From Gammaproteobacteria bacterium (GTDB lineage: Bacteria > Pseudomonadota > Gammaproteobacteria > UBA9214): a stretch of 34,959 bases of DNA. The DNA lies in assembly GCA_003230545.1 (NCBI GenBank), contig QIFB01000081.1:1-34959 (forward strand), given 5' to 3'. The translations under genes and the position numbers were made by a program. Shown here one piece after another: positions 8,297 to 34,868 of this stretch. The notes under the pieces are model-generated. The model searched no databases. It worked only from the letters and a program-made list of their open reading frames with translations, and was not told where the DNA came from. Position 1 is the stretch's first letter; the number at the start of each line of letters is the position of its first letter.

Positions 8297-8486
8297 TCAA
8301 TGAAACCGGGGAAACCGGTGACCTGCAATAGCCATCCGGTACGGCGTGGATATTGCTTGAGATACGAGTCATAACCATATGTTATTCCATATATTTTACT
8401 GGCTTTCCTGCGTACTTATTAAAGGGCGCCGTCGTCCTGGCCGCTACAGTTGTTGTATGCAACCACCTAACGCAACAGGTACCCTC

Positions 8487-9812
8487 ATGCGAAAAGAAAT
8501 CTTTGGCCTGATCCTGCTCATGGCAACCACTGGTACGGCTGCTGCCGGTGACATCTGGCAAAGCCTGTTCAAGGAAAAGCTGCGCGATGCAAACAAGGGG
8601 GACAGTGTCGCGCAATATGATGTTGGCGCGATGTATCAAAAGGGTCGTGGCGTCAAGGCCAATCGCGACAAGGCAATCGAGTGGTATACCAGGGCAGCCG
8701 ACCAGGACAGCCGGAAAGCCGCTTCCCGACTGAAACTGATGAAGTCCAATGAAGCACGATTTTCCGCGGCCGCTGTCAGTGCCTCCCGGGGCGAAGTCGA
8801 CAGCCAGTTCGATCTCGGGAAAATGTACGAAAAAGGTATTGGCACCAGCATTGATTACCGGCAGGCACGCGAATGGTACGGGAAGGCTGCTGCAGCAGGA
8901 CATGCAAAGGCAAGCTTCAGCCTCGGGTTGATGTACCACGAGGGCACCGGCGTCAAAAGAAATAACAAGACGGCCTTCAAATGGTTCAATGATGCGGCCG
9001 GACAAGGCAGTACCCCGGCACAATATTACCTCGGCAAGCTGTACGCATCCGGATCCGGCGTACGCAGAAATTACACGAAGGCACTTGACTGGTATTCGAT
9101 GGCCGCCGATGGCGGATTTGGCCAGGCCAGGGGCGCGATCATCGAGGTAACTGAAAAGATGAATCAGCCGAAGCCTGAAAAGACCGCCTCGAAGAAAAAA
9201 ACGAAGCAAAAGCCCGTGGCAAAGTCGATGCCGAAGAAAAAAACGAAGACAGCAAAGAATCCAGAGAAACAGCCTGAACCGGTTGCCGTGAAAGAGAAGA
9301 AGCTGATTGCCCAACCTTCAGTAGTTCCCGGGATAACGGAAGATACCGGCGACAAGACACACAGCGACCAGCTCATGGAAGCCCTGATGCTGACCACATG
9401 GAGCCGGCAATCCCGGCCAGTCAGTTATCTGCCGTCTGCCGTCAATAGCTGCCGGATCGAGGGTAAGAGGATCTCCTGCTTCAGCGACGATCAGACCCGC
9501 AACAGTGGCGGCAATGATGTGAAATTCAAGACCAAGTCCATCATCAGTAACTTTGGCAGCGACGGAACCTTCCAGGTGGTGTATCGCAATCTGGTGGTCA
9601 ATACCACGCAGTCTGGAAAGAACATCCGACAGGAAACGGAAGCAGCCTATGGTGATGAGGGCACAGGTTCCACCCACACTGTCATTACCGGCTGGGGGAT
9701 CGAACATTCAGTCGAATGCAAAATGCATGACAGCAACTCGCTTACCTGCGTAAAAGACAAGTCACGCACTGTCAGGATCACCAGCCAGCAGAACATAGCG
9801 CGTGGCCGCTAG
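8487..9812 (+). CDS. Secreted/periplasmic Sel1-repeat protein with Lys-rich linker and uncharacterised C-terminal domain
   Basis: Signal-like MRKEIFGLILLMATTGTAAAG; about four Sel1-like repeats (GAMYQKGRGVKAN..A.EWYTRAA; GKMYEKGIGT; GLMYHEGTGVKRN; GKLYASGSGVRRN). Confidence 0.85.
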   Translation: MRKEIFGLILLMATTGTAAAGDIWQSLFKEKLRDANKGDSVAQYDVGAMYQKGRGVKANRDKAIEWYTRAADQDSRKAASRLKLMKSNEARFSAAAVSASRGEVDSQFDLGKMYEKGIGTSIDYRQAREWYGKAAAAGHAKASFSLGLMYHEGTGVKRNNKTAFKWFNDAAGQGSTPAQYYLGKLYASGSGVRRNYTKALDWYSMAADGGFGQARGAIIEVTEKMNQPKPEKTASKKKTKQKPVAKSMPKKKTKTAKNPEKQPEPVAVKEKKLIAQPSVVPGITEDTGDKTHSDQLMEALMLTTWSRQSRPVSYLPSAVNSCRIEGKRISCFSDDQTRNSGGNDVKFKTKSIISNFGSDGTFQVVYRNLVVNTTQSGKNIRQETEAAYGDEGTGSTHTVITGWGIEHSVECKMHDSNSLTCVKDKSRTVRITSQQNIARGR

Positions 9813-9840
9813 GTATAGGTAACATCCCATAAAAAGGTGC

Positions 9841-10170
9841 TTCCCCCGAGCGAGTGGGCGCACCTGTCGAGCGTGCATCCGCCGTCCCCGGCAGGCCTCC
9901 TTGTCAGGGATCGCTACAAGTCCCTCCCTGGATGCTCAACGGCTTCATCCCTGAAGCCGATGTCCCTGACAAGGAGGCCTGCCGGGTACACCGGATTGCA
10001 TGACGCGATATTGTGAGGGGTCACTCGGGGTCCGGGGGGATGGCTCAAGACCGTTGGCCGCAGGGATGCGGCCATCGAGCGTACAGGGACGTATTTACAG
10101 CGGGTCTTGAGCCATCCCCCCGGACCTCGAGTGACCTTGCTCGAATGGTGCGTCCGCTCGCTCGGGGGAA
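9841..10170 (+). repeat. Nested inverted-repeat element: outer stem enclosing two long hairpins; candidate structured RNA or mobile palindromic element
   Basis: Outer arms 9841-9864/10147-10170 (22/24 Watson-Crick, remainder G.U on + strand); hairpin 1 9887-9910/9963-9986 (24/24); hairpin 2 10019-10052/10103-10136 (33/34 + G.U). Confidence 0.85.
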
Positions 10171-10173
10171 GAA

Positions 10174-10199
10174 CAAAAAAAGGGGCCTTGCGACCCCTT
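10174..10199 (-). terminator. Rho-independent terminator of pnp
   Basis: On minus strand: AAGGGG-TCGCAAGG-CCCCTT followed by a T run. Confidence 0.85.
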
Positions 10200-10221
10200 C
10201 TGATATTCCTGGTATTCCGCT

Positions 10222-12309
10222 TCAGGGCTGACCGACGGCCTTCATACTCAAGCGGATACGGCCCTGCTTGTCGACCTCGAGGACCTTGACCTTTACCAGA
10301 TCACCCTCGGACAGCTTGTCGCTGACATTCTGCACGCGCTCCTCGCAGATCTGCGAGATGTGCACCAGTCCGTCCTTGCCCGGCAGGATGGTCACGAATG
10401 CACCGAAGTCCATCAGCTTGGCGACCTTGCCGTCATAGATCGTACCGACCTCGACATCGGCCGTGATCAGCTCAACCCGGCGGCGTGCCTCCTCGCCGGC
10501 GGCAAGATCCACCGAGGCAATCTTGACGTTGCCGTCATCATCGATATCGATGCTGGTGCCGGTTTCATCGGTGATCGAACGGATTGTGGCGCCGCCCTTG
10601 CCGATCACATCGCGGATCTTGTCCGGGTTGATCTTGATGGTGATATAGCGTGGTGCGAATTCCGATACATCCTCACGCGGTGCAGCAATTACCTTGTTCA
10701 TTTCGCCGAGGATATGCATGCGCCCGTCATTGGCCTGTGCCAGTGCCTTCTCCATGATCTCGCGGGTAATGCCCTGAATCTTGATATCCATCTGCAGGGC
10801 CGTGATGCCCTTCGCGGTACCGGCCACCTTGAAGTCCATGTCACCGAGGTGGTCCTCGTCACCGAGGATATCGGTAAGCACGGCGTAGTCATCACCTTCC
10901 TTGATCAGGCCCATGGCGACACCGGCGACCGAGCCACTGATGGGCACACCGGCATCCATCATGGACAGGCTGCTGCCGCAGACGCTCGCCATGGAGCTGG
11001 AGCCATTGGACTCGGTAATCTCGGAAACCACGCGGATGGTATAGGGGAAGCCTTCCTTTTCCGGCATCACGGCACTGACGCCACGTTTTGCCAGTTTGCC
11101 ATGGCCGACCTCGCGCCGCTTGGTACCGCCCATGCGGCCGGTCTCACCGACACAGTACGGCGGAAAATTGTAGTGCAGCAGAAACTGTTCCTTGTAGGAG
11201 CCGGACAAGCCGTCAATCAGGGCCGCATCGCGCTCGGTGCCCAGCGTGGTCACCACCAGCGCCTGGGTCTCGCCCCGGGTAAACAGTGCCGAACCATGGG
11301 CACGCGGCAATACACCGGTGCGGATCGCGATCGGGCGCACCGTACTGGTATCACGTCCATCGATACGCGCCTCACCAGCAAGGACGCGGCTGCGCACGAC
11401 TTTCTTCTCGAGCTTGCCAACGGCGCCCTTCACTTCTTCTGTTGAGAAACCGTCTTCGGCCTCGTCAGCAGCAACCTTGTCAACGATTTCCTGGCGTATC
11501 TTGCTCAGCAGGGTGTAACGGTCCTGCTTGTCGGCGACCTTGTAGGCAGCCGCAATGGCTTCCTGGCCTTCCTTTTCGACCGCCCCGGCCAGCGCGGTAT
11601 TTTCTTCCGGTGCCGTCCATTCCAGCGCTGGTGTGTTGACCTCGGCGGCCAGTTCCTTGATGGCCTGGATAACGACCTGTTGCTGTTCGTGACCGAAGAC
11701 CACGGAACCGAGCATGATATCCTCGGACAATTCCTTCGCCTCGGATTCCACCATCAGCACCGCGCTATCGGTACCGGAAACGACCAGGTCGAGTTGCGAT
11801 ACTTCCATCTGGTCTGCCGATGGGTTCAGGACATAGTTGCCATCGACATAACCGACGCGGGCTGCGCCGATCGGGCCGCTGAACGGCAGGCCTGAAATCG
11901 ACATGGCCGCGGATGCGCCGATCAATGCCGGGATATCCGGGTTGATCTGCGGATCATAGGAGATGACCGTGAGGACGACCTGCACCTCATTGGTAAAGCC
12001 CTTCGGGAACAGCGGCCGCAACGGCCGGTCGGTCAGCCGGCACAGCAGTGTCTCTGCTTCACTCGGGCGACCTTCACGCCGGAAGAAATTTCCGGGAATC
12101 TGGCCAGCTGCGTAGCCCTTTTCCTGGTAGTCCACCGTGAGCGGGAAAAAGTCACGCCCCTCCATCGGCTTCCTGGCCCCGACCACCGTGGCCAGCACCT
12201 GGGTGTCGCCCATACGAACGATAACCGCGCTGCACTGGCGGGCGATTTCTCCTGTTTCCAACGTGACCGTCTGGTCACCGTACTGAAATGTTTTCTTGAT
12301 TGCGCTCAC
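10222..12309 (-). CDS. pnp: Polyribonucleotide nucleotidyltransferase (PNPase)
   Basis: 695 aa; GxxGG KH motif ([20 protein letters not shown]), C-terminal S1 domain, RNase PH domains. Confidence 0.97.
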
Positions 12310-34698: not shown

Positions 34699-34868
34699 TT
34701 CTGCTCCTCGGCTTTAATGCGCTTATAGATTTCTTCTCGATGCACAGCTACCTCTTTGGGTGCATTAATACCGATTCTTATTTGATTACCCTTAACCCCA
34801 AGCACAGTCACCGTCACATTATCGCCAATCATCAGTGTCTCACCCACTCTTCTAGTAAGTATTAACAT
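34695..34868 (-). CDS. csrA: Carbon storage regulator CsrA/RsmA family RNA-binding protein
   Basis: [57 protein letters not shown]; canonical CsrA motifs; 57 aa so absent from the ORF track. Confidence 0.97.

Follow-up and report, generated by a model that had tools for sequence, protein, structure and literature searches.

A dispersed palindromic repeat of gammaproteobacteria with conserved double-hairpin heads that match CsrA/RsmA ligands

Dispersed palindromic repeats are known as a kind, and several described systems share features with the one reported here. REP/BIME elements and REPINs with their RAYT are dispersed palindromes that form inverted pairs and are mostly encountered downstream of genes (PMC3733652, PMC2817692). 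The TIR families of the Stenotrophomonas 'TIRtrons' display self-complementary long terminal repeats and dimers, occur in Xanthomonadales and are defined by a flanking RAYT-like gene (PMC3733652). MITEs such as ERIC, YPAL and Correia are non-coding, 70-300+ nt long, bear terminal inverted repeats and fold in RNA. Among RNAs, CsrB, CsrC and RsmX/Y/Z are sponges in which multiple ANGGA-type loops occur on short hairpins with dual-site spacing (PMC7652899). The CsrA SELEX consensus is RUACARGGAUGU, and most of the selected hairpins have no more than four base pairs; the ligand of RsmE is a hexaloop, ANGGAN, that is variable at its two N and nowhere else, and a single CsrA dimer can bridge a pair of sites separated by 10-63 nt, with an optimum above 18 (PMC7652899).

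The element studied here lies in a window of 34,959 nt (the whole stretch of DNA that was analysed); a Sel1-repeat gene stops on one side of it, the pnp terminator stands on the other, and it is without coding capacity (Table 1). The original prediction described it as a nested inverted repeat in which an outer stem encloses two long hairpins, and all three stems were confirmed. Both strands of positions 9841-10174 folded far better than dinucleotide shuffles (-264.7 kcal/mol versus -155.4 and z -15.5 for the + strand, z -17.1 for the - strand), with a three-way junction predicted on each. The perfect 24-bp stem proposed for hairpin 1 was recovered inside arms that are 91% complementary over 34 nt, and the proposed 34-bp stem of hairpin 2 pairs at 33 of 34 positions. 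The element was also correctly said to end just before the pnp terminator: a terminator-like hairpin adjoins its end at 10174. The composite ends read CCCCTGATCGAGC...GCTCGATCAGGGG. At its tips, each hairpin carries a head made of two mini-hairpins, alpha and beta, and the two heads are oppositely oriented, that of hairpin 2 on the + strand (10056-10102) and that of hairpin 1 on the - strand (9912-9959), so that a transcript of either strand would display one intact head. In head B, the beta GGA follows the alpha GGA by 23 nt.

Table 1. Position and evidence of the features of the composite element and of neighbouring or related genes in the window.
Feature	Position	Strand	Evidence or remark
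Sel1-repeat gene, upstream of the element	8379-9812	+	Pfam PF08238
Composite element, outer stem around two inverted head-bearing hairpins	9837-10174	.	Folding; boundaries from alignment of own-genome copies
Outer stem, left arm	9837-9872	.	86% complementary to 10139-10174; compensated changes among copies
Outer stem, right arm	10139-10174	.	Arm-complementarity comparison
Hairpin 1 (type A), one long-stem arm	9877-9910	-	Helix 3 (16-copy alignment A1): 15 pairs changed on both sides
Hairpin 1 (type A), other arm	9963-9996	-	Arm-complementarity comparison
Head A, mini-hairpin beta, GAGC-ATCC-AGGGAG-GGAC-TTGTAGCG	9912-9937	-	One mismatch to class-wide pattern
Head A, beta ANGGAN loop	9924-9929	-	
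Head A, mini-hairpin alpha, AGGGAT loop 9947-9952	9940-9959	-	Invariant in 16 copies
Hairpin 2 (type B), 5' arm	10019-10052	+	97% complementary over 34 nt
Hairpin 2 (type B), 3' arm	10103-10136	+	Arm-complementarity comparison
Head B, mini-hairpin alpha, GGCCGC-AGGGAT-GCGGCC, GGA 10064-10066	10056-10073	+	Invariant in 16 copies; class-wide
Head B, mini-hairpin beta, GAGC-GTAC-AGGGAC-GTAT-TTACAGCG, GGA 10087-10089	10077-10102	+	Class-wide pattern
pnp intrinsic terminator, just outside the element	10178-10201	-	Terminator-like hairpin
pnp, gene beyond the element	10222-12309	-	
csrA	34713-34868	-	

Nucleotide searches of the own draft genome (1.92 Mb in 220 contigs) detected 59 stretches of similarity, of which about 30 are substantial copies, and the head motif, with one mismatch allowed, occurred 49 times. 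The true copy number is probably higher since many contigs end inside a copy. Copies were also present in genome G001 of the same genus, some sharing flanks with G000 copies at 88% identity, and these are thus older than the split. A search of a second same-genus genome, G002, found none, and its orthologous sel1-pnp junction provided the empty site sought in the original prediction: 31 nt separate the homologous flanks versus 374 in the window, the pnp terminator is intact and its AAAAAGGGGCC...GGCCCC counterpart can be read there. The 25 copies compared showed no consistent target-site duplication, their flank repeats being no better than those of swapped flanks; the AAAAAGG found on both sides of the window copy was discarded because it belongs to the terminator poly-A. 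The dispersed copies and the empty site suggest that the repeat is mobile. The proposal of a non-autonomous palindromic mobile element thus fits the dispersed copies, the empty site and the lack of coding capacity; searches for a transposase and for a target-site duplication yielded none. Two junctions in G001 deserve mention: in L039 (C139) the right flanks of own-genome copies L002 and L013 are joined to each other, through either rearrangement at the repeat or misassembly, and at L031 (C169:1-440) a long perfect palindrome extends the flank of the element as far as the contig end, which is probably an assembly artefact.

Compared with the described systems, the repeat resembled MITEs by its dispersed non-coding copies and terminal inverted repeats, but displayed two internal conserved heads and no detected target-site duplication or known parental IS; no transposase of a related autonomous element was found among ORFs between neighbouring heads in the loci searched. 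It is much longer than REP/BIME and REPIN units (head plus stems of at least 15 bp), is conserved at its tip rather than at its foot, and was not seen to carry the GTAG tag that marks the foot of the 20-40 nt REP palindrome. In 35 Y1_Tnp loci, no RAYT gene was found between two inverted copies, nor was a RAYT-like gene, which defines TIRtrons, found near heads. The sponge RNAs are few dedicated sRNA genes, in contrast to a many-copy repeat for which no sigma70-like promoter was detected in 9600-10400, and the window element matched no Csr/Rsm family of Rfam. In fact, no Rfam family reached its gathering score. The one weak match was RF02770, Yersinia sRNA 224 (Ysr224), on the - strand (E 0.0022, 24.3 bits versus a gathering score of 70, in a 401-base search). 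The complementary strand of its consensus holds a head of the same layout (alpha loop CAGGGATG, GAGCCTACATGGATGTATTTACGGC), whereas the modelled strand has UCC instead of GGA loops and forms a single hairpin, not a composite. This likeness suggests that one antisense member of the family has already been catalogued as Ysr224, which in Rfam is described neither as a repeat nor as a CsrA ligand. Ysr224 is among the most frequently annotated sRNAs in a 2022 review (PMC9029176), as fits a repeat.

Covariation was examined in an alignment of 16 full own-genome copies (A1), whose consensus has 115 base pairs. Compensated double changes were observed in 39 of them; none of 500 shuffles matched A1 on any of five measures, and shifting the partners destroyed the pairing. 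Other copies and covariation, both of which the original prediction relied on, are therefore present. The changes were located in the arms and the hairpin tips were almost constant. The conserved part of the element is the tips and not the stems, a point that the original prediction had missed, as it had the inverted orientation in which the two hairpins bear this tip. Both hairpins follow the same plan: stem, alpha mini-hairpin (C-AGGGAT-G loop), GAGC, beta GTNC-AGGGAN-GNAY, TTRCAGCG, stem.

The same head is widespread. The beta pattern GAGCNTNCAGGGANGNANTYRCNGCG was found in 40 of 370 gammaproteobacterial genomes and a reversed control pattern in none. Named hosts include Marinobacter, Microbulbifer, Halopseudomonas, Stenotrophomonas, Xanthomonas, Shewanella, Rheinheimera and Pectobacterium; no E. 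coli genome matched a consensus-like head. The motif GCGTACAGGGACGTATTTACAGCG, which the original prediction placed in intergenic repeats of other gammaproteobacteria, indeed recurs there. Methylotuvimicrobium buryatense 5G (G243) and Xanthomonas sp. LMG 31884 displayed 289 and 234 matches, many of which form inverted pairs about 185-290 nt apart. Stems around the heads are unrelated between genomes, yet paired. Among 79 de-duplicated heads from many genera, pre-filtered on GGA at the alpha position, every listed alpha-stem pair uses all four Watson-Crick types and most outer-stem positions use three or four; the feet vary class-wide and the loops stay C-A-N-G-G-A-N-G. In a sample taken with an anchor that ignores the loop and from 20-kb regions picked by position instead of motif, 52 of 59 stem-bearing matches had an ANGGAN beta loop, the alpha loop contained GGA in 42 of 59 (versus 6.8% of control hairpins), and most heads showed a GGA-GGA spacing of 22-24 nt. 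Carriage by phages or plasmids was rejected since five of 2.9 million viral contigs matched the head and no plasmid matched the composite.

Some heads contain extra nested GGA-loop hairpins (GTACAGGGATGTAC and GGCAGGATGCC). A second hairpin type, GTACAGGGATGTAC-GAGTGTCGCGGGAGGCAGGATGCCGGGAGCGAC, lies within the beta loops of L016, L018, L021, L023, L024 and L045 and within the alpha loops of L050 and L087, where it adds further GGA loops, and heads L247, L251 and L260 of G243 carry a different nested hairpin. The 5-nt bulge after beta (26-mer) reads T-T-Y-A-C or C-T-T-G-C, and its first and fourth bases (26-mer positions 17 and 20) covary: almost all of 296 heads combine either T with A or C with G.

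At the level of the loops, the match to CsrA/RsmA ligands is exact. The heads share the ANGGAN hexaloop with conserved A and GGA and a C-G closing pair, and their two GGAs, 22-24 nt apart, fall within the bridging range of the dimer. Beta column statistics read A-C-A-N-G-G-A-N-G-U, with just two N positions free, on a stem of 3-4 bp; this mini-hairpin (ACA-N-GGA-N-GU) fits the whole SELEX ligand, and in alpha the loop recurs on top of a stem of 6-7 bp. Three csrA genes occur in the own genome, two of them in contigs C10 and C46. Overall, csrA was found in 39 of 40 head-bearing genomes versus 285 of 330 others (Fisher p 0.04), a weak association that is uncorrected for phylogeny and genome size. 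The single head of G036 lies about 2 kb from csrA (C18:546826-549113), probably by chance. In the open literature, no paper was found that joins CsrA with REP, MITE, palindromic or intergenic repeats, most subscription journals being outside this coverage, and we rate the CsrA-like head of this family as previously unrecognised.

The mismatches in the stems revealed on which strand selection acts. Symmetric mutation in a palindrome should yield G.T and A.C mismatches equally. On the GGA strand of the outer stems of heads, their ratio was 80:16 (p 2e-11), and 29:4 in the de-duplicated set. Among own-genome copies, hairpin B had 13 columns with G.T against one with A.C, and hairpin A was its mirror image, as expected from a head on the other strand. 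The outer stem of the composite was balanced (14:14) and the alpha stems alone displayed no asymmetry (9:13). This excess of G.T over A.C points to the folded GGA strand, be it RNA or single-stranded DNA, as what matters. Asymmetry was no weaker in antisense (9:2) or divergent copies (8:0) than in those in sense orientation (10:1) and is thus not maintained by local transcription; nor did heads prefer the sense strand of the genes next to them (36:40; 14:22, 9:9, 21:23), with gene calls from a simple codon-usage script that small biases could escape. The structured RNA of the original prediction held at the structural level, by its 39 compensated pairs in 16 copies and its strand-asymmetric wobble pairs, and found no counterpart in the sense-strand orientation of heads. 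Two orientation patterns were set aside. That heads lie nearer the antisense gene in convergent regions follows from the -/+ order within inverted pairs. In G243, an apparent replichore bias, with every head on + along 3 Mb, came from the way in which matches are listed, since 40 regions of 20 kb showed mixed strands.

Taken together, orientation-independent asymmetry and absence of sense bias fit selection during propagation and not at each copy, which is what would be predicted if the element were a palindrome moving as single-stranded DNA, its head recognised by some mobilising enzyme, e.g. an HUH transposase with the single DNA strand of GGA polarity as its substrate, and the CsrA-like loops a coincidence or side effect. 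The orientation data favour such recognition of DNA, and the dispersed copies, the empty site and the GGA-loop hairpins nested in head loops also fit mobile DNA. Yet a mobiliser failed to appear. No Y1_Tnp gene lay within 1.5 kb of a head in 35 transposase loci, which led us to reject a nearby RAYT/IS200-type transposase, and G235, a 99% complete genome, has 28 heads and no Y1_Tnp. An autonomous form in which two heads would enclose a gene was likewise rejected, since the ORFs between neighbouring heads are host genes (those matched in Pfam being metabolic or repair genes) or, in three cases, unmatched. The missing target-site duplication also weighs against such a palindrome, which moreover leaves unexplained why both loops match CsrA at every specified and free position. 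We consider it less likely than not, but a strong competitor that comes close behind the CsrA/RsmA ligand.

The repeat could also be an ordinary REP/BIME-like hairpin of 3' untranslated regions, merely stabilising or terminating mRNA and having no specific protein partner for its head. Its very stable stems agree with such a role, as does its location between convergent or co-directional genes, divergent promoter regions being mostly avoided outside G243; but a near-invariant head and a fixed loop spacing are not accounted for while stems change freely, making this explanation unlikely. Very improbable is an upkeep of pairing by mutation alone (template-switch correction in the palindrome or conversion between copies), by which compensated pairs would be uninformative on function: helix 3 of hairpin 1, with its many double changes and no one-sided intermediates, would suit it, but symmetric correction predicts equal G.T and A.C on the GGA strand, where the ratio was 80:16, and the constant head is not explained.

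The exact motif match favours the CsrA/RsmA ligand. Several points stand against it, namely the lack of sense bias and of a detected promoter, the G.T excess in antisense and divergent copies as well, the modelling of Ysr224 on the opposite strand, and G199, a head-bearing genome showing no csrA. The window holds one member of a dispersed family of non-coding palindromic repeats; with a confidence that falls slightly short of even, we propose that its head, when transcribed, most likely binds a CsrA/RsmA dimer, the copies being a ligand pool. The repeat unit is a long hairpin with a stem that drifts freely but stays paired, topped by a conserved head in which two mini-hairpins with ANGGAN loops are set 23 nt apart, and the composite consists of two such units in inverted orientation plus the outer stem. 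Transcription of either strand would then produce an RNA presenting one intact two-site head, most likely bound by one CsrA/RsmA dimer bridging both loops, and many copies would amount to a CsrA ligand pool scattered over 3' regions.

Extended to the whole class, our proposal is more tentative: mobile hairpin repeats capped by double CsrA/RsmA docking sites might form a strand-independent ligand pool of tens to hundreds of copies and tie a mobile repeat to the global post-transcriptional regulator of its host. CsrA/RsmA activity is set by the balance between protein and RNA ligands, and the latter are thought to be a few sponge sRNAs and mRNA leaders. Were optimal double sites present on hundreds of repeat copies, the titration of CsrA would need recounting in many gammaproteobacteria. 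Should the head instead be a structure recognised in DNA, it would point to an unrecognised mobilising system of very wide host range; if it is a CsrA ligand, a mobile repeat would have acquired, or would depend on, the main RNA regulator of its host.
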